From a virus: 64,000 nt of DNA. Both the position numbers and the translations under genes were made by a program. The notes under the pieces are model-generated. The model was not told the origin of the DNA. It saw nothing but the letters and a program-made list of their open reading frames with translations, and did no database searches. Where the stretch lies: IMG/VR virus record IMGVR_UViG_3300030328_002692, positions 1-64,000 of that record. One strand, given 5' to 3'. Positions 1-36,442 of the stretch are shown piece after piece (position 1 is the first letter of the stretch; every line of letters starts with the position of its first letter).

Positions 1-125
1 TTTTGCGCCGAGTAGTAAAAGTAGTAAAAGTATTAGTGTCCCCTGCGCCAGTGAGAAAACTGAAGTGAGAAAACTCAAAAGTCCGTGTGATCCTTTGGCG
101 CCGAAGGCGCCAGTGTGAAAGTCTA
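1..125. repeat. GCGCCAGTG-type repeat cluster, left edge
   Basis: GCGCCAGTG occurs at 45-53 and 107-115, each followed by a short A-rich stretch. Related short units (GAAGTGAGAAAAC, GTAGTAAAAGTAGTAAAAG) fill the rest. The same core with the extension nnAAAATGAAGTAG recurs near 921, 963 and 1743, always in non-coding DNA close to the DnaA boxes. An iteron-like or RNA-encoded role is possible. I see no credible gene here. Confidence 0.6.
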
Positions 126-219
126 GTAATTACACGAGAAGGTGTCTGTGAGGCTCTCAGAGGCTCTCTAAGCAACGATATGTCTGAGGCAAGGGAGGGG
201 TACGCCCCGCAGGGCCGAC

Positions 220-271
220 TTATCCACAGGTTATCCACAGGCAAACCCGACTTATCCACAGGTTATCCACA
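220..271 (+). other. Cluster of four perfect DnaA boxes (candidate replication origin)
   Basis: TTATCCACA occurs without mismatch at 220-228, 231-239, 252-260 and 263-271. These form two pairs with an 11-bp pitch, placing the sites on the same helical face. An AT-rich stretch (272-320) follows and could serve as an unwinding element. TTATCCACA is the high-affinity box for bacterial DnaA. The arrangement suggests recruitment or titration of host DnaA. Whether it is the phage origin is inference. Confidence 0.7.
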
Positions 272-333
272 GGCAAAATAAATTGAAAAAAACGCTTGAC
301 TTTTTGCTCAATTTCTGATAGGAAATTGACCCG

Positions 334-364
334 AAACATTTGATAAATGTTTAGCTAAACATTT
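334..364. promoter_or_regulatory. Operator-like inverted repeat over the first promoter
   Basis: AAACATTT (334-341) and AAATGTTT (345-352) form a perfect inverted repeat with a 3-bp spacer. A third half-site AAACATTT lies at 357-364 and overlaps the -35 hexamer of the 363-392 promoter. This layout fits a repressor or activator binding site. The regulator is unknown; the phage encodes several HTH proteins. Confidence 0.55.
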
Positions 365-392
365 GCATTATGTTTGGTTTTCGGGTTATAAT
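363..392 (+). promoter_or_regulatory. Sigma70-like promoter
   Basis: TTGCAT (363-368), 18-bp spacer, TATAAT (387-392). An ATG lies 6 nt after the -10 (399), in frame with the Shine-Dalgarno-preceded ATG at 423. Confidence 0.7.
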
Positions 393-422
393 ACTCTCAT
401 GATAAACAAAAAGGAGAAAAAC

Positions 423-827
423 ATGAATTTTAAAAACACATTTATTTTATATGTTGGTGTTGGTATGCACAGACTAGACCCTATAGATACGCTCACCGTA
501 GGCACTACAAGGCTTGATTTAATCAACTGTAGGTCTAATCAAAAGACTATGCAAATCGTCCACGTGTTCACGCTCTCACGCTCTGACGTGACCAAAGGAC
601 AATTTGAATATTGGGAAAGCCACACACTTTCACCAAAGCTAGATAAGATGTTGGAAAAAACAAGAGTTATTTATGACACCTTGTCTATGAATGGAAAATG
701 TCAAGGTAGAACTAATAACTGGTGGCTACTTAACGATACTAAACTAGAGGAGGTAATATTGTATGTCAAAAAAGAATTTGAAGCCTATGACAAAGGCACA
801 ACTGATACAGAGGATAAAGAGGACTAA
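423..827 (+). CDS. Hypothetical protein, 134 aa
   Basis: I do not recognise this protein. It has no evident signal peptide or membrane helix, a hydrophobic N-terminus (FILYVGVG) and an acidic, Asp/Glu/Thr-rich tail. The start at 423 is chosen because AAGGAG lies 8 nt upstream. An in-frame ATG at 399 coincides with the predicted transcription start and would add eight residues (MINKKEKN). It is the first gene after the DnaA-box cluster and sits under a promoter with an operator-like repeat, so an early regulatory or host-interaction role is plausible but not shown. Confidence 0.75.
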   Translation: MNFKNTFILYVGVGMHRLDPIDTLTVGTTRLDLINCRSNQKTMQIVHVFTLSRSDVTKGQFEYWESHTLSPKLDKMLEKTRVIYDTLSMNGKCQGRTNNWWLLNDTKLEEVILYVKKEFEAYDKGTTDTEDKED

Positions 828-836
828 AAATCCTCA

Positions 837-923
837 CCTCAAAATGAGGTTGCTCAAACTCCTACATTCAATGTAGGAGGTAGGGCTGGCTCGATCGAGC
901 CAGCTCGCTGAGTGCGCTCAGCG
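837..923. repeat. Array of four adjacent perfect hairpins/palindromes
   Basis: Four inverted repeats follow one another: CCTCA-aaa-TGAGG (837-849), a 9-bp stem CTCCTACAT/ATGTAGGAG with a 3-nt loop (859-879), a 20-bp perfect palindrome GCTGGCTCGATCGAGCCAGC (885-904), and CGCTGAG-tgcg-CTCAGCG (906-923). None has a clear T-tract on the plus strand, so a simple terminator is unlikely. They sit directly after the first gene and next to GCGCCAGTG repeats and DnaA boxes. They could be protein-binding sites, an origin element or a 3' end structure. Confidence 0.7.
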
Positions 924-1018
924 CCAGTGGTAAAGTGAAGTAGTAGATCGATAGTGCGCGCAGCGCCAGTGCAAAAACGAGTGCAAAAATGAAAGGTCTA
1001 CGAGTGCGAAAGCGACAT
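921..1018. repeat. GCGCCAGTG-type repeat cluster
   Basis: GCGCCAGTG at 921-929 and 963-971, followed by GTAAAGTGAAGTAG and CAAAAACGAGTGCAAAAATG. A degenerate unit, GAGTGCGAAAGCG, lies near 1001-1013. Together with 837-923 this fills the space between the genes at 423 and 1212. I see no gene in this stretch. Confidence 0.6.
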
Positions 1019-1067
1019 ATGTTCCCCTTTTAGCGGGGTCTTGTCCTTCCCTCCCCTCCACCCCATT

Positions 1068-1096
1068 ATTATAACATACTTCTTCCCGCTTGTCAA
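1068..1096 (-). promoter_or_regulatory. Minus-strand sigma70-like promoter without a gene
   Basis: On the minus strand TTGACA (1091-1096), 17 bp, TATAAT (1068-1073): a perfect consensus. It points left into 1061-830, which holds repeats and hairpins and no convincing ORF. A small untranslated RNA is the likeliest product. Confidence 0.65.
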
Positions 1097-1123
1097 GGGT
1101 TTTTTTGAGAAAATTTAAAAAAG

Positions 1124-1143
1124 TTATCCACAGGTTATCCACA
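1124..1143 (+). other. Second DnaA-box pair
   Basis: Perfect TTATCCACA at 1124-1132 and 1135-1143, with the same 11-bp pitch as the boxes at 220-271. It lies between a minus-strand promoter (1068-1096) and a plus-strand promoter (1176-1204), so DnaA binding could also influence transcription. Confidence 0.7.
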
Positions 1144-1175
1144 GGAAATTAACAGAAAATACACAGGATATTCAG

Positions 1176-1204
1176 TTGACAAATCCTATTTGGCTCTATA
1201 TAAT
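1176..1204 (+). promoter_or_regulatory. Consensus sigma70 promoter
   Basis: TTGACA (1176-1181), 17 bp, TATAAT (1199-1204). The ATG of the next gene begins 8 nt after the -10 (1212), so the mRNA is predicted to be leaderless. Confidence 0.8.
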
Positions 1205-1211
1205 ACTCATT

Positions 1212-1361
1212 ATGGAAAACAAAAAAGAAACTGCAAAAAGACCAAGCAAAAAAGTTTTAATGGCACAAATAGAAGCTAAAGGCGTAGACAAAACAATTGT
1301 CGCTTCTTTAAGCAGAGCTAACATTGAAACAATGGTTTGGGTCAAAAGTCTACTTGACTAA
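1212..1361 (+). CDS. Small basic protein, 49 aa, leaderless
   Basis: The protein starts MENKKETAKRP. Its second half (KGVDKTIVASLSRANIETM) resembles the C-terminal segment of the HTH proteins at 2344 and 5789, where the pattern is LxxLxKASKADLxxL. It may therefore be a stand-alone copy of that domain. No Shine-Dalgarno is possible because the transcript should begin at about 1211. Function is unknown. A structured 3' region and terminator follow. Confidence 0.65.
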   Translation: MENKKETAKRPSKKVLMAQIEAKGVDKTIVASLSRANIETMVWVKSLLD

Positions 1362-2301: not shown

Positions 2302-2343
2302 ATACTCATAATGAAAATAATAAACTACATCAAGGAAAAGATT

Positions 2344-2670
2344 ATGGCAAATACAAATGCAAAAGCTAGACCTAAAAACTATACAGATGAGATGGTCGCT
2401 CAGATGACAGAGGCTTACACAGCTAATCCAACAAGAGAAACTGTGGACACTCTAGCCAAAGAACTTGGCAAATCTGTAAGAAGCATTATTGCTAAACTTT
2501 CAAGAGAAGGCGTTTATGTAGCTCAGCCTAAAGTAACCAAAACAGGCGAGCCCGTAGTAAGAAAAGCAGAACTAGTATCAGTAGTTGAAGCTCACTTCGG
2601 TATAGCATTACCAACTCTTGTAAAAGCTAGCAAAGCTGACTTACAAAGATTAGTTGATAACATCAGCTAA
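2344..2670 (+). CDS. HTH DNA-binding protein (phage paralog family), 108 aa
   Basis: This is a predicted DNA-binding protein. A helix-turn-helix-like N-terminal domain carries NPTRETVDTLAKELGKSV and IIAKLSREGVY (about residues 28-58). A linker with KTGEP and a C-terminal segment LPTLVKASKADLQRLV follow. It is closely similar to the protein at 5789 and more distantly to those at 15034, 19241 and 7456 (minus). The start at 2344 is chosen for AAGGA 7 nt upstream and because the paralogs also begin MA. The in-frame ATG at 2311 sits near the transcription start. Similar proteins are familiar from marine phages; their targets are unknown to me. Confidence 0.8.
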   Translation: MANTNAKARPKNYTDEMVAQMTEAYTANPTRETVDTLAKELGKSVRSIIAKLSREGVYVAQPKVTKTGEPVVRKAELVSVVEAHFGIALPTLVKASKADLQRLVDNIS

Positions 2671-2819: not shown

Positions 2820-3712
2820 AGAAATTGAGAGAACAAGGGAAGCCTCAAAAACGCAAGTAGAAATATGAGCATTAGCCATCATCTCTACAGCAAGAGGCTC
2901 CCAACTCCGAGCTCTAACCACATTAAGAGCTGTAGCAACAAAACCATGTGGCGCAGACTGATAGCGATAACAATAGTAGTAATTGAGCCGTAGATTATGA
3001 CTAGACAATCTCGGGAGTGGAACGCTCTTTTATAAGGCAGTAATCCTACAACGCGTGGAGATAGTATCAATAAGCAGTTGGTAGTAGTAAGCCCAAGTAA
3101 GAAAACTATCCCCACATCACTTGGCGATGGGATATAAAAAAGTGGCAGTCCTATACGGCATAGCCCACCTAAGAAGGAGCCCCAAGCGTCTTGCAACACG
3201 AAAGCAACGAGCACTCTGATAGATATTGGCGACCACCTGTGTAAACAGTAAGGATAGCAAGGTTGGGCAAGAAGAACGCTCCCAACATCAGCGACAATAA
3301 TCCGAAAGGAGAGCAAAGCGAAGTTGAAGAGAGTAGCCACAATCGTTTGAGGTTAGCTGTAAAGAAATCCGAGATACAGGCAAAGAGAGTAGACTTATAC
3401 GCAGGACTAACCCAAAGGGATTAACACGCCTCTGTAACCAAATTGCCTGTGTGGTAGACTTGGTAGACAAGCGATAACAAAGTAGCTAGACAGATTGAGA
3501 GTGCTATAGTTATGAACTTACGGGGAAGACCTAAACCAATGTGCGAAATAGCTTAAGTAAGCATTGGCAAGGGCAAAGTAGTCATAAGTCCTTTACTCAC
3601 GCAGGCAGACACAGTAGTAGGGTATGAGTTATCCCACGCTGAAGGAATAAAACTTGGAGTAGCAAATTGCGAAACATACTTTTTCAACCCAGCCAAGTCG
3701 CTGGGTTTTTTT
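2820..3712 (+). ncRNA. Large structured non-coding RNA (about 890 nt), candidate GOLLD/ROOL-type
   Basis: The stretch has its own promoter and intrinsic terminator, no plus-strand ORF, and visibly higher GC than neighbouring genes. Helices found by eye: GGG-a-AGCCTC/GAGGCTCCC (2837-2846/2894-2902); AGCTCT/AGAGCT (2910-2915/2926-2931), whose loop CCACAT (2918-2923) can pair with ATGTGG (2946-2951) as a pseudoknot; CATC/GATG inside TATCC/GGATA (3107-3134), whose loop ACTTGG pairs with CCAAGT (3093-3098); CTGT-gtaa-ACAG (3237-3248); TCC-gaaa-GGA (3301-3310); ACAGGCAA/TTGCCTGT (3376-3383/3443-3450); CCAATG/CATTGG (3536-3541/3562-3567). Phages are known to carry giant ornate RNAs (GOLLD, about 800-900 nt; ROOL, shorter). 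Size and setting fit GOLLD, but I cannot verify class membership by sequence. Confidence 0.75.
3686..3712 (+). terminator. Intrinsic terminator of the large RNA
   Basis: AACCCAGC (3686-3693), 6-nt loop, GCTGGGTT (3700-3707), and a run of seven T ending at 3712. This is a canonical Rho-independent terminator. Confidence 0.9.
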
Positions 3713-5692: not shown

Positions 5693-5799
5693 CAATAGGA
5701 ACTTTAATGATGACAATAGTATTATTTATCGGCATAACAGTTGTTATACCTTTTGCCTTGCTAACGCGAGAAGATGGGGATTGTGAAGATGGCGAGTAA
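5689..5799 (+). CDS. Small membrane protein, 36 aa
   Basis: ATGA overlap with the preceding gene. The protein MTIGTLMMTIVLFIGITVV continues into one hydrophobic helix and an acidic tail. The stop lies inside the start region of the HTH gene at 5789, consistent with coupling. Two adjacent single-helix proteins suggest a pair acting at the membrane, but this is inference. Confidence 0.5.
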   Translation: MTIGTLMMTIVLFIGITVVIPFALLTREDGDCEDGE

Positions 5800-6112
5800 T
5801 TATACTAACGAACAAGTAGAGCATATGATTGAAGCTTATAGTGCAAATCCTACGAGAGAAACAGTAGATGATTTAGCTATAAATTTTGACAAGAGTGTAA
5901 AATCTATAATTGGAAAGCTTTCACGCGAAGGCGTGTATCAAAAAGCCGTCTATAAAACAAAGACTGGCGAAATCCCAATAACAAAAGCACAACTAGTAGA
6001 AAACCTAGCAGAGTTGCTAGAAATTCCAAGTAGTAAAATTATGGGATTAGAAAAAGCTCCAAAGCAAGATATTAAATTTTTGCACGATACAATAGGAGGT
6101 CTAAATGGCTGA
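5789..6112 (+). CDS. HTH DNA-binding protein (phage paralog family), 107 aa
   Basis: A close paralog of the protein at 2344: NPTRETVDDLA, KSVKSIIGKLSREGVY and KTGEIPITKAQLVENL align without large gaps. The same layout applies, with an N-terminal HTH-like domain and a helical C-terminus. The start at 5789 matches the paralog N-terminus (MA). It is the penultimate gene of the operon and overlaps the next by 8 nt. Likely a sequence-specific DNA-binding regulator; targets unknown. Confidence 0.75.
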   Translation: MASNYTNEQVEHMIEAYSANPTRETVDDLAINFDKSVKSIIGKLSREGVYQKAVYKTKTGEIPITKAQLVENLAELLEIPSSKIMGLEKAPKQDIKFLHDTIGGLNG

Positions 6113-7557: not shown

Positions 7558-8196
7558 ATGAAAAAAGAAATGAACATAACCAAATTAGAAGAACAACAAA
7601 TTCTGCTCAATCAAATCGTAGAGAAAGATTTTGGCAGAGTTGCAGTTATTTTAGAAGGACGCGATACCGCTGGCAAAACAGGGACTATTCGTGAGCTAAC
7701 GCACTACCTTCCGACAAGTAAGTATTCTATATCGCTTAGTACTAAACCTAGTGCTTGGGATATGAAACACTGGCTCAAGTCATGGAAGAAGAAGTTGCCT
7801 AGCAAAAACCAAATAGTATTCTTTGACAGAAGTTGGTATTCTCGTGCTATGGTTCAAAAACTGAATGGCTGGTGCACAGACAAGCAGTATGATAAGTTCA
7901 TGTCTGAAGTAGTAAAGTGGGAAAACAAGCAAAAGGATATTACTTTTATCAAACTATGGCTTAGCATTTCGGAAGAAGAACAAGCTATTAGAATTGGCAC
8001 TAGACAAATATCTCCTTTAACAAAGTGGAAATTCTCACCAAATGACGCTGTTGCACTCTCAAAGTATGACCAAATGACTATCTTAAAAGAGAGAGTATTT
8101 ACAACACTTGGAGAGTGGCACAGTATAGATTACAACGATAAGAGAGCAGGTAGACTTTCTTTGATAACTAGAATAGTTGAAGAACTAAACAAATGA
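7558..8196 (+). CDS. Polyphosphate kinase 2 family protein, 212 aa, leaderless
   Basis: A P-loop kinase of the PPK2 type. Walker A is EGRDTAGKTGT (residues 33-43). The PPK2 Walker B and arginine signature FFDRSWYSRAMVQ lies near residue 90, and the lid-side pattern KWKFSPND is near residue 160. PPK2 enzymes transfer phosphate between polyphosphate and nucleotides. In a phage this could supply (d)NTPs or ATP from host polyphosphate, which is inference. Length is close to single-domain PPK2 proteins, slightly short. The transcript appears leaderless. The stop overlaps the next ATG (ATGA), pairing it with a HAD phosphatase. A kinase acting on nucleic acid is a less likely alternative. Confidence 0.85.
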   Translation: MKKEMNITKLEEQQILLNQIVEKDFGRVAVILEGRDTAGKTGTIRELTHYLPTSKYSISLSTKPSAWDMKHWLKSWKKKLPSKNQIVFFDRSWYSRAMVQKLNGWCTDKQYDKFMSEVVKWENKQKDITFIKLWLSISEEEQAIRIGTRQISPLTKWKFSPNDAVALSKYDQMTILKERVFTTLGEWHSIDYNDKRAGRLSLITRIVEELNK

Positions 8197-9513: not shown

Positions 9514-9660
9514 ATGCAAAAGGCAAAACGATTCTTTAATCGTCTTGCTAGTTCGCAGGCGATCAAAGAAGTAAATAGAAATAGTGATGAATTATGGTCT
9601 TTAACAATGATGATATTTGTTTTTTGGTTTATGTTCATTGCTATGCTACCAATAATGTAG
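9514..9660 (+). CDS. Small membrane protein next to lysozyme, 48 aa
   Basis: TAGGAG precedes the ATG. The basic N-terminus (KAKRFFNRLASS) is followed by one strong membrane helix, LTMMIFVFWFMFIAMLPIM, at the C-terminus. A single-helix protein just upstream of an endolysin could be a holin- or pinholin-type protein, but it lacks further evidence. Confidence 0.55.
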   Translation: MQKAKRFFNRLASSQAIKEVNRNSDELWSLTMMIFVFWFMFIAMLPIM

Positions 9661-9738
9661 CAAATGAAAACTAGAGCCATCTCAGTAGCAATTCAGTTCT
9701 TGAATCAGCTATTGAGGTGCTCACCTAATAGGAGAATT

Positions 9739-14936: not shown

Positions 14937-15033
14937 AGATATTATGAGTGATAGATTTTATCAACAAATGAGAGATGCGACAGGTTGGGCACCAGGCCTA
15001 CCTGAGCACTACAAAAAAACTAGGAGAAGACGA

Positions 15034-15390
15034 ATGGCATGGACAGATGAATCCAAAGCACAAGCCGTTGAAATGTATACAGACGCTGAGGCAACCCCAG
15101 AAACAAGTATGGAGATTGTCAAGGATATAGCTGAAGAATTAGGAGAAAGTCCTAATGGAGTCAGAATGATTCTTACCAAAGCTGGTGTGTATGTTAAGAA
15201 ATCCCCTGCTACAAGTTCTAGCAAATCATCAACAGGTGGTGGAACTAGAGTTAGTAAAGCTGATGCAGCCGCTGCTTTAAGCGCAGCTATCAGTGACGCA
15301 GGTCAAGAAATTGATGATGACATTATCAGTAAATTAACTGGTAAGGCTTCAGTATATTTCACAGGGATTATCAACGCAATCAACGACTAA
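15034..15390 (+). CDS. HTH DNA-binding protein (phage paralog family), 118 aa
   Basis: The N-terminal domain (WTDESKAQAVEMYTDAEATP, then DIAEELGESPNGVRMILTKA) is a divergent member of the HTH family at 2344 and 5789, ending AGVYVKK where the others have EGVY. A Ser/Gly-rich linker leads to a helical C-terminus (SKADAAAALSAAI). The start at 15034 has AGGAG upstream and matches the paralogs (MA). An in-frame ATG at 14944, at the transcription start, would add 30 residues including RFYQQMRDATGWAPGLP. Both starts may be used. Confidence 0.72.
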   Translation: MAWTDESKAQAVEMYTDAEATPETSMEIVKDIAEELGESPNGVRMILTKAGVYVKKSPATSSSKSSTGGGTRVSKADAAAALSAAISDAGQEIDDDIISKLTGKASVYFTGIINAIND

Positions 15391-16057: not shown

Positions 16058-17020
16058 ATGGAAAATATAAAAGCAAGTTTAAAGCGAGCAGCAATCGCAT
16101 ACTATAATGGCGACCCTATCATGTCCGATTCAGAATTTGATAGGTTAGCAGAATTATGTAATTATGAAGATGTTGGCGCGTCTAGTAAAGATAATCGCTT
16201 CCCACATGCTTTTCAGATGTTTTCATTACAAAAGGTTTTTAGTAATGAAATAAATACTAAAGACCCATTCAATAGTTATAAAGATACTGTAATCGTTAGT
16301 CCTAAACTGGACGGCGCTGCAGTATCTTTACTCTATGTAAGAGGTAGACTACACCGAGCCTTGACAAGAGGAGATGGTAAAAAAGGATTAGATATAACCT
16401 GTCAGATGAGGACATTAGCTCCTGCAAACTTTGGGTTAGATTATGTCAACTTACCAGAATATTTCCAAGTGACAGGCGAAGTAGTTGCTCCAAAAACAAT
16501 CAAAAACGCAAGGAACTATGCAGCTGGTGCTCTTAACTTAAAGGACATTGAAGAATTTAAGCAAAGAGAATTACACTTTATTGCATATGGATTAACCCCT
16601 TATCAAAAACCCGAATGGTCATGTGACCTACGCGAGTTATCAAAATTGGGATTTGACACAGTTATGGATAGTAATTGGTCTGAGTACCCTGATGATGGCA
16701 TAGTGTTTAGAATTAACTCTAATAAAGAGTTTGAGAAAAGGGGTTATACTTCGCATCACCCAAGAGGAGCATACGCACTTAAACAGATACAAACAGGAGT
16801 AATCACCACTCTCCTTGATGTAGTATGGAATGTAGGTAAATCAGGAGTAGTTGCTCCAGTAGCAATGTTAGAACCTGTTGATATTGATGGTGCGACAGTA
16901 AGTAAGGCAACTTTACACAATGCTAAATACATAGAAGATATGTGCTTAGAGCTTGGTTGTAAAGTAGAAGTAATAAGAAGTGGTGAGATTATACCAAGAA
17001 TAGTTAGGAGAGTAGATTAA
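16058..17020 (+). CDS. ligA: NAD-dependent DNA ligase, N-terminal half (adenylation and OB domains)
   Basis: 320 aa. A short Ia-like segment (AYYNGDPIMSDSEFDRL, residues 14-30) binds NAD in the family. The adenylation site KLDGA is near residue 83, followed by TGEVVAP, NYAAGALN and DDGIVFRIN. The OB-fold signature WNVGKSGVVAPVA, VSKATLHNA and SGEIIPRIV ends the protein. Zinc-finger, HhH and BRCT domains are missing; they lie in a separate gene at 18469. A two-gene NAD ligase is known in T5-like phages. The mRNA appears leaderless. Four unrelated genes separate the halves. Confidence 0.9.
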   Translation: MENIKASLKRAAIAYYNGDPIMSDSEFDRLAELCNYEDVGASSKDNRFPHAFQMFSLQKVFSNEINTKDPFNSYKDTVIVSPKLDGAAVSLLYVRGRLHRALTRGDGKKGLDITCQMRTLAPANFGLDYVNLPEYFQVTGEVVAPKTIKNARNYAAGALNLKDIEEFKQRELHFIAYGLTPYQKPEWSCDLRELSKLGFDTVMDSNWSEYPDDGIVFRINSNKEFEKRGYTSHHPRGAYALKQIQTGVITTLLDVVWNVGKSGVVAPVAMLEPVDIDGATVSKATLHNAKYIEDMCLELGCKVEVIRSGEIIPRIVRRVD

Positions 17021-18468: not shown

Positions 18469-19239
18469 ATGAGAGAAGAAATGAGAGAAATTATCCCGCC
18501 AACTAATTGCCCTTCATGTAATGAAGCATTAGTTTGGGAGAAAGACCAACTTTTCTGTCATAACACTAAATGTAGTGGAAAGACAAGTAAAAAGATTGAG
18601 CACTTTGCTTCTACTCTCAAAATTAAAGGTCTCGGACCTAAAACAGTAGAAAAACTTCAATTAATCGATTATTTTGATTTATATGAAATGCCTCTTGAAA
18701 CTATGATAGACGCACTACAATCCGAGAAGCTAGCCGTAAAGCTTTACCGAGAAATTAAAGCCAGTAAAAGTGTTGACCTAGTCGACTTAATACCAGCTTT
18801 CTCAATAAAGTTAATTGGTCGTTCCGCCTCAGCAAAGGTCTGTTCAGTAATTAAAAATATAAATGAACTTAATGAAGACAAATGCGAACAGGCAGGACTT
18901 GGCCCATCAGCTACGGACAATTTATTAGACTGGTATTACGAAGAATATACAAACGGACTAGATAGACTACCTTTTAGTTGGAAAACTACAGTACAACCAA
19001 AAGCACAAGTAGAACTCAAAGGAACTGTATGTATATCGGGTAAACTAAAAAGCTATAAAACAAAGGCGGCCGCAACCGAAGTATTAGAAAAAATGGGCTA
19101 CCTTGTAAAAAGCAGTTTGACCAAAGATGTAGATATCCTAGTCAACGAAAGCGGAATAGAATCCGCAAAAACACAAGCAGCCCGAGATAGGGGTGTTGAA
19201 ATAATAACAAACTTAAAAGAAATAATAAAAGGAAACTAA
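18469..19239 (+). CDS. ligB: NAD-dependent DNA ligase, C-terminal half (Zn finger, HhH, BRCT)
   Basis: 256 aa. A Cys4 zinc finger uses C14, C17, C30 and C35. The helix-hairpin-helix region includes LKIKGLGPKTVEKL and IPAFSIKLIGRSASAK. A BRCT domain covers roughly residues 184-256 (GTVCISGKLKSYKTKAA, LVKSSLTKDVDILV). There is no adenylation domain. It should work with the product at 16058 as the second subunit, as reported for T5-type ligases. It has its own promoter, so expression need not match that of the first half. A second in-frame ATG lies at 18481. Confidence 0.9.
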   Translation: MREEMREIIPPTNCPSCNEALVWEKDQLFCHNTKCSGKTSKKIEHFASTLKIKGLGPKTVEKLQLIDYFDLYEMPLETMIDALQSEKLAVKLYREIKASKSVDLVDLIPAFSIKLIGRSASAKVCSVIKNINELNEDKCEQAGLGPSATDNLLDWYYEEYTNGLDRLPFSWKTTVQPKAQVELKGTVCISGKLKSYKTKAAATEVLEKMGYLVKSSLTKDVDILVNESGIESAKTQAARDRGVEIITNLKEIIKGN

Positions 19240-34692: not shown

Positions 34693-36442
34693 TTATAGCA
34701 AAGATAATTTGCTAACAGAATTTAGTAAGAAAACTCTAAAAGATAGATATTTAGTAGGTGATGAACAATCACCGCAGGAAGCATTTGCACGGGCAGCTTC
34801 AGCATTTGCTGATGACCAAGACCATGCACAAAGAATTTATGATTACGCAAGTAATTTATGGTTTATGTTTGCTACTCCTGTACTATCAAATGGAGGCACT
34901 CAGCGTGGCCTACCAATTAGTTGTTTTCTTAATTATGTAGATGACAGTAGAGAGGGTATTACTGGTCATTATACAGAGAATGCTTATCTATCATCAATGG
35001 GTGGTGGAATAGGCGGTAGCTGGAGTGATGTTCGTTCACAAGGAACAAAAACATCAAAAGGCTCAGAAAGTACAGGGGTTATTCCCTTTATGAAAGTAGT
35101 AGATGCGGAAATGCTTGCATTCTCGCAAGGTGTAACTCGTAGGGGTAGTTATGCATCTTATTTACATATGTCACACCCCGAAATAGAGGAATTTTTAGAT
35201 GTTAGAAAACCAACTGGCGGAGATACTAATCGTAAGTGTATTAATTTACATCATGGTGTTGTTATCCCAGATAAGTTCATGGAAGTTATCCACAAGGCGA
35301 CGAAAGAGCCAAACTTCAATGATGACTGGGAACTTATTGACCCGCATAGTAAAGAAGTTAAAAAGGTAGTAAGTGCAAGAACACTTTGGGTAAAACTATT
35401 ACAAAACAGAATGGAAACAGGAGAGCCTTATCTCATGTTTGAAGATGCTGTAGATGCAGATTTACCTGATTTTCAGAAAAAGAAAGGTTTAAAAGTAAAT
35501 CATAGTAATCTTTGTTCTGAAATTACACTTGCAACAAATGAAGAAAGGACAGCAGTATGTTGTTTATCTAGTGTAAATCTGGAGTATTTTGATGAATGGT
35601 CAAAAGTCCCAGCATTTATACCCGATTTAATAAGATTCTTAGATAATGTATTAACATATTTTATAGAAAATGCTCCAAATGAACTAGAAAGAGCTAGATA
35701 TAGCGCTTCTAGGGAAAGGAGTATAGGTTTGGGAGCTATGGGATTTCATGCTTATTTGCAAAAGAATAACATGGCTTTTGAAGGAATGTGGGCAAGTGCT
35801 AAAAATCATTTGATGTTTAAGCATATAAAAGACTACGCTCAAACAGAAACACAAAGACTTGCAGCAGAAAGAGGAGCCTGCCCAGATGATGATTCTTGTA
35901 CAGTAAGAAATGCACATCTATTGGCAATAGCTCCAAATGCAAGTAGTTCTATTATATGTGGTAATACATCTCCAAGTATAGAGCCTTTTAGAGCAAATGC
36001 TTATAATCAAAAGACTAAGTCTGGTTCGTATTTGCAGAAGAATAAATTTCTTGAAAAAGTATTAGAAGAATATGGACAAAATACAGATAATATATGGTCT
36101 AGTATTATTTCTAATAAAGGTAGTGTTCAGCATTTAGAATTCTTATCTGCAGATGAAAAAGAAATATTTAAAACAGCTGTAGAAATAAATCAGGCATGGG
36201 TAGTAGAACACGCTAGTGAGAGGCAGGAGTATATTTGTCAATCACAGAGTGTTAATCTTTTCTTCCCACCTGATGTAAATAAAGGCGACCTACACAATGT
36301 GCATATGCTAGCGTGGGCTAAAAATATGAAAACACTTTATTATTTACGAAGTGAGGCTATTAGTCGTGCTGATAATGTATCTAATGAAGTAAAAAGAGAG
36401 ATAATCTTTGAACAATCAGATTGTCTAAGTTGTGAGGGTTAA
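34676..36442 (+). CDS. nrdA: Ribonucleotide reductase class I, alpha subunit
   Basis: 588 aa. Substrate-site cysteines are in LPISCFLNY and NLCSEITLA, the second with the adjacent Glu of the active site, and a CCLSSVNLEY block follows. The C-terminal redox pair is CLSC. It reduces NDPs to dNDPs with NrdB. The N-terminal ATP-cone is missing (cellular NrdA is about 760 aa), so dATP feedback should be lost, as in other phage enzymes. GGAG precedes the ATG, which overlaps the FEN gene by 17 nt. Confidence 0.93.
   Translation: MKLEIDYSKDNLLTEFSKKTLKDRYLVGDEQSPQEAFARAASAFADDQDHAQRIYDYASNLWFMFATPVLSNGGTQRGLPISCFLNYVDDSREGITGHYTENAYLSSMGGGIGGSWSDVRSQGTKTSKGSESTGVIPFMKVVDAEMLAFSQGVTRRGSYASYLHMSHPEIEEFLDVRKPTGGDTNRKCINLHHGVVIPDKFMEVIHKATKEPNFNDDWELIDPHSKEVKKVVSARTLWVKLLQNRMETGEPYLMFEDAVDADLPDFQKKKGLKVNHSNLCSEITLATNEERTAVCCLSSVNLEYFDEWSKVPAFIPDLIRFLDNVLTYFIENAPNELERARYSASRERSIGLGAMGFHAYLQKNNMAFEGMWASAKNHLMFKHIKDYAQTETQRLAAERGACPDDDSCTVRNAHLLAIAPNASSSIICGNTSPSIEPFRANAYNQKTKSGSYLQKNKFLEKVLEEYGQNTDNIWSSIISNKGSVQHLEFLSADEKEIFKTAVEINQAWVVEHASERQEYICQSQSVNLFFPPDVNKGDLHNVHMLAWAKNMKTLYYLRSEAISRADNVSNEVKREIIFEQSDCLSCEG

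Follow-up and report, generated by a model that had tools for sequence, protein, structure and literature searches.

A T5-like marine phage carries, at the start of its genome record, three tandem pairs of perfect DnaA boxes whose geometry is that of the double box preferred by DnaA, and the same geometry recurs in a large group of marine relatives and in cultured phages of the T5 family. The paired boxes have an A2-family gene and consensus promoters as neighbours, and they lie in a control region that appears to be placed and built like its counterpart in the T5-family terminal repeat. We propose, with about even confidence, that they are double sites for host DnaA in an early (pre-early) control region, acting mainly on early promoters. 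If this is true, DnaA on paired boxes would set the timing or strength of the first phage gene expression. Throughout, the window denotes the whole stretch of 64,000 nucleotides that was analysed.

The record, 91,133 bases long, is a contig from an uncultivated virus. Its PolA-type DNA polymerase is ~45% identical to those of Demerecviridae (the T5 family), such as Aeromonas phage AhSzq-1 and Proteus phage PM135, and its capsid-protease protein also aligns with T5-family proteins. The initial annotation had credited the phage with a T5-like replisome of its own, which is borne out by the polymerase together with a DnaB-like helicase, a primase and a split NAD ligase; a ribonucleotide reductase and SbcC/D are also encoded. 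The NAD-dependent DNA ligase is divided between two separate ORFs (window 16058-17020 and 18469-19239) with other ORFs between them, and the early region includes a gene for polyphosphate kinase 2 (PPK2; window 7558-8196; Pfam PF03976, E 1.5e-44). A DNA search for near relatives among cultured phages returned only short matches, at the boxes. We rejected the candidate of a DnaA-like protein encoded by the phage itself because PF08299 (DnaA domain IV) matched nothing in the record, while the control genomes were positive. Early genes run rightward to ~37.7 kb, and from there late genes run leftward to the small terminase gene (90,028-90,489). The boxes lie at the record start, in non-coding, promoter-dense DNA; their position between the terminase and the early genes fits the terminal-repeat region of a T5-type genome, in a linear record that has a gap between its ends and no visible repeat. 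In those relatives whose contigs span the interval, the distance from the terminase gene to the homologue of the gene at 2311 is about 4.0 to 8.3 kb.

An exact 9-mer count in the window recovered six perfect TTATCCACA boxes at 220, 231, 252, 263, 1124 and 1135, all on the plus strand and paired at an 11-bp pitch as first annotated. Each pair reads TTATCCACAGGTTATCCACA, with a 2-bp gap, and the starts of pairs 1 and 2 are 32 bp apart, or about three helical turns. Together with a stray seventh box at 35286 this gives 7 perfect boxes in the window against 0.84 expected, a count reached in 0 of 100 shuffles; the remainder of the full record adds one further stray box (88061, minus strand). Boxes with one mismatch are not enriched (28 versus 22 expected), which indicates that the signal resides specifically in the perfect, paired boxes. 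The AT-rich DNA and dispersed repeats that had been described beside the boxes are likewise present, the segments adjoining pair 2 and pair 3 (the latter at 1097-1123) having 30% and 22% GC, respectively, versus 36% window-wide. The elements of the array, in window coordinates, are the following:

27..131, plus strand: dispersed repeats GCGCCAGTG..AAA / AGTGAGAAAACT, of which iteron-like copies lie ahead of the boxes in relatives
220..239, plus strand: double DnaA box 1, TTATCCACA-GG-TTATCCACA (boxes 220-228 and 231-239)
252..271, plus strand: double DnaA box 2 (boxes 252-260 and 263-271)
272..420, no strand: AT-rich segment beside pair 2
910..1010, plus strand: second cluster of these dispersed repeats (GCGCCAGTGCAAAA), ahead of pair 3
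1124..1143, plus strand: double DnaA box 3 (boxes 1124-1132 and 1135-1143), flanked by two divergent consensus promoters
1146..1167, plus strand: two more degenerate 11-bp repeats, AAATTAACAGA and AAATACACAGG, read from the sequence, which extend the array toward the -35 element

Comparable degenerate units follow a single perfect box in the relatives L239, L240 and L238, and iteron-like repeats of the form GCGCC-AGTGCAAAAGTGAAGTG stand ahead of many box pairs in this phage and its relatives.

Using ChIP-seq and mutation, Stringer and colleagues found that DnaA of E. coli binds mostly as a dimer, on two boxes separated by 2 or 3 bp; a lone box, even a perfect one, often goes unoccupied (PMC11317965). 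All three pairs in the window are double boxes of this E. coli type, namely two TTATCCACA-like 9-mers in the same orientation with a gap of 2-3 bp. As they fit the dimer rule perfectly, they are likely to be bound by a host DnaA whose specificity resembles that of the E. coli protein. The initial annotation had overlooked this double-box character, the occurrence of sites of the same kind in T5-family terminal-repeat regions, and the location of the locus upstream of an A2-family gene. Tandem TTATCCACAGG pairs are also found elsewhere: at least 120 viral contigs, nearly all without relation to this phage, contain the identical 22-mer, for which the reversed control gives 0, and near matches were detected in Klebsiella podoviruses and in microviruses. 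Other viral contigs (L377-L496) frequently have pairs with a 13-bp pitch as well, GAAG being their commonest gap, and pairs with a 10-bp pitch are rarer, with 24 contigs. Since the 13-bp pitch is common in viruses at large, the 11-bp rule holds for this phage group only.

The DNA around the boxes is rich in promoters, the promoter scan giving five 12/12 and three 11/12 matches in the first 4 kb. The promoters and genes closest to the boxes are:

334..375, no strand: operator-like tandem palindromes (AAACATTTGATAAATGTTT and a diverged copy), overlapping the -35 element of the promoter at 364..392
364..392, plus strand: likely promoter TTGCAT-17-TATAAT, 3' of pairs 1 and 2, read from the sequence and absent from the promoter scan output
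423..827, plus strand: 134-aa ORF 3' of pairs 1 and 2, with no family match and 33% identity to an ORF of the relative L220
1068..1096, minus strand: consensus sigma-70 promoter TTGACA-17-TATAAT, 12/12, leftward, its -35 element 27 bp from pair 3
1176..1204, plus strand: consensus sigma-70 promoter, 12/12, rightward, ahead of the gene for a 49-aa small protein
1212..1361, plus strand: gene for the 49-aa small protein, of a family repeated in relatives

A search with the 134-aa ORF as query returned zero relatives. The palindrome AAACATT-N5-AATGTTT has only two copies in the record, at window 334-352 and at record position 90683, which straddle the early/late boundary and could possibly serve as a shared operator.

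The small-protein family (~45-55 aa; pattern KK..L...I...V...SL.RAN..T) has 77 members in 58 loci and no Pfam or PHROG match, and in its pattern it is similar to the C-terminal portion of the A2-like protein. Homologues of the 49-aa gene come after the box and promoter in L238-L240. In this phage and in L281, L283, L285, L296 and L332 a leftward promoter scoring 10-12/12 or better has its -35 element 27-28 bp from the pair, and in these five relatives it lies ahead of a member of the small-protein family; random positions have a promoter score of 11/12 or better in 8% of cases, and the fixed spacing is to be read as a pattern spotted post hoc in loci that share ancestry and are not independent. 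A double box is located at most 300 bp upstream, in either orientation, of 13 of the 54 non-redundant family members, and box pairs are also found 3' of, or distant from, such genes. Further downstream, window 2820-3712 is an ORF-poor stretch of ~0.9 kb that extends from an 11/12 promoter (2785-2813) to an intrinsic terminator (3686-3707) and contains short blocks conserved in relatives, making it a candidate non-coding RNA. Its fold has a z of -1.29, with no strong structure signal, and an Rfam search of the window recovered only a tRNA, outside this stretch.

Profile searches detect three A2-family genes in the window, and three matches also in five of six relatives:

2311..2670, plus strand: gene for an A2-like DNA-binding protein, the first recognisable gene 3' of the boxes (phrog_1725, E 6.5e-6)
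5774..6112, plus strand: second, weak A2-like paralogue, from profile search
14944..15390, plus strand: strong A2 homologue, E 3e-30 to the family holding T5 A2

The first of these lies ~1.2 kb downstream of the boxes, and hhalign comparison of its product with a profile of seven A2 proteins gave 94.8% probability over 100 columns. The family is seen by profiles only, as tblastn with T5 pre-early proteins gave no match. The phrog_1745 profile for the DNA transfer protein A1, which does match T5 A1 as a control, found nothing in the record, whose ends are separated by a gap, or in the six relatives.

Relatives were gathered by means of two genes outside the boxes, the small terminase gene and the gene at 2311. 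In the terminase set, many of the loci that reach far enough upstream contain one perfect box or two; these lie at a distance of 3.0-4.6 kb from the terminase and are oriented as in this phage. Upstream of the 2311 homologues, 151 kb in total, there are 48 perfect boxes on the plus strand (a count that includes some near-identical loci) and 0 on the other, against a mean of 1.5 for permuted 9-mers. All 20 non-redundant perfect pairs less than 25 bp apart in the two sets have the 11-bp pitch, and the two separate clusters of the window recur in L281, L283, L285, L296 and L340. The boxes are common but not universal: they occur in 17 of the 33 relatives whose DNA extends 1.5 kb or more upstream of the A2-like gene, the other 16 having no perfect box, and 16 box-less relatives that were tested yielded only one degenerate double box, so that some members of the group can dispense with the sites. 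The initial annotation had named a lack of conservation in close relatives, with skew placing the origin elsewhere, as grounds for refutation; the boxes are conserved in many relatives and so pass that test. The same relatives' upstream DNA contains Fur-box-like palindromes (TGAGAATNATTCTCA). The 104 kb lying upstream of the A2-like gene (L273-L352) have 18 of them, compared with 2 in the 152 kb downstream of it and 2 after shuffling. These palindromes are also present in the T5 injection stop signal, at ~9590-9713 of the terminal repeat (L219); the box region of the window has none.

T5 itself has two perfect boxes between divergent pre-early promoters, one in the injection stop signal, and all its perfect boxes are within the terminal repeat and hence duplicated at the other end. 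We scanned the terminal-repeat or pre-early regions of seven cultured T5-family phages for double boxes with at most 2 mismatches in total and a gap of 2-3 bp, and recovered 12, versus 0 expected, in five of the seven. Three of these belong to T5, whose annotated injection stop signal has two, the third lying between the divergent pre-early promoters. The boxes are ~0.7-2 kb from A2 in T5, Seafire, River4, AhSzq-1, VspSw_1 and PM135, but not in Vibrio phi 3.

These observations suggest how the sites might operate. As the phage DNA enters the cell, host DnaA would bind the paired boxes as dimers and would act mainly as a transcription factor or roadblock at the divergent early promoters, thereby tuning or timing how the small proteins and the A2-like gene are expressed. 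Three roles had been put forward originally, namely a start of replication, a sink for host DnaA and control of early promoters. The last fits best, given the 27-28 bp between -35 element and boxes in several relatives; a sink is unlikely with six boxes, and an origin is possible, with GC skew lending it no independent support. Promoter control is favored by the association of the sites with promoters and small genes, by their uniform orientation and by their being dispensable in some members of the group. Against it, the adjacent promoters already match the consensus, so that an activator may perhaps be unneeded, and both the 14-kb distance of the strong A2 homologue and the failure of the A1 profile count in the same direction, as do the 16 of 33 relatives that have no perfect box and the box pairs away from the small-protein genes. 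That T5-family phages more generally read the replication state of the host at entry through DnaA, and so time infection to the cell cycle, is an extension that we consider unlikely.

The foremost rival to promoter control, to which we accord a tentative and clearly smaller likelihood, is a DnaA-assisted replication origin, in which DnaA would stack on the pairs and melt the AT-rich DNA, the flanking promoters and iteron-like repeats assisting, after which the phage helicase would load there. In its favor, tandem boxes of the high-affinity type lie next to AT-rich segments (22-30% GC) that could serve as an unwinding region, iteron-like direct repeats precede the boxes in this phage and its relatives, promoters stand on both sides, and the location, with the terminase gene to one side and early genes to the other, is conserved. 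The raw cumulative GC skew also has its minimum at the record start. However, its turning points coincide with those of gene orientation, and when fourfold-degenerate sites are used the skew tracks the coding strand; in most bins C then exceeds G along the strand presumed to be leading. The skew analysis proposed in the initial annotation thus yielded no switch in strand composition independent of gene direction, and we rejected raw skew as origin evidence. An origin is further disfavored by the phage's own helicase, primase and polymerase, by the 16 of 33 relatives that have no perfect boxes, and by the location of the T5 boxes in the transfer and pre-early region. T5 replication origins map elsewhere than the boxes.

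By analogy with T5, the boxes could instead belong to an injection stop signal, in which DnaA on the first-entering DNA, together with repeats and palindromes, would halt transfer until an early protein releases it; we judge this improbable. In its favor are the T5 double boxes inside the annotated signal, which is described as having repeats, palindromes and DnaA boxes (PMC13250531), the Fur-box-like palindromes shared by the T5 region and the same region of relatives, and the presence of A2-family genes. On the other hand, the A1 gene was not found in the record or in six relatives, the window region has no Fur-like palindrome, and no terminal repeat is visible in the linear record with its gap between the ends. 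Least likely of all, and in our view very improbable, is that the boxes serve as a sink, titrating the DnaA of the host and so stopping its replication: paired sites of a very high-affinity type in a phage that multiplies its genome, and similar pairs in many unrelated viral contigs, would be consistent with it, but six clustered boxes per genome would be few against the many sites of the host chromosome at entry, and a sink needs neither fixed positions by promoters nor a single orientation.

DnaA boxes in the T5 injection stop region are already known: a 2026 paper names repeats, palindromes and DnaA boxes as features of the signal, the passage concerned citing Heusterspreute et al. 1987 and Davison 2015 (PMC13250531). 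In the literature that we searched we found no mention of the double-box geometry, of its being conserved in the marine group or of its A2 and promoter context, and no tested function for the T5 injection-stop-region boxes.

As in bacterial and plasmid origins, the boxes described here adjoin AT-rich DNA and direct repeats; unlike in those origins, the initiator is not identified, there is no supporting skew and the phage encodes its own helicase. The double boxes upstream of purH, polA, mutH, nrdA and mioC in E. coli have the same 9-mer and the same 2-3 bp gap (PMC11317965), whereas the present ones are phage-borne, perfect in both boxes and clustered, in a phage with its own replisome. The closest parallel is the T5 control region with its injection stop signal, a likeness seen from a linear record that has a gap between its ends and no visible terminal repeat. 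This phage differs from T5 in that its three pairs are perfect and have a pitch of exactly 11 bp, in the many consensus promoters that it has on either strand, in the A1 gene not being found in the record, and in Fur-like palindromes that are restricted to its relatives. In both phages, double boxes with 2-3 bp gaps are situated in non-coding DNA, with late genes and the terminase on the far side of the box region; and just as the double box between the divergent promoters of T5 is ~2 kb from A2, so an A2-family gene lies near the boxes of this phage.
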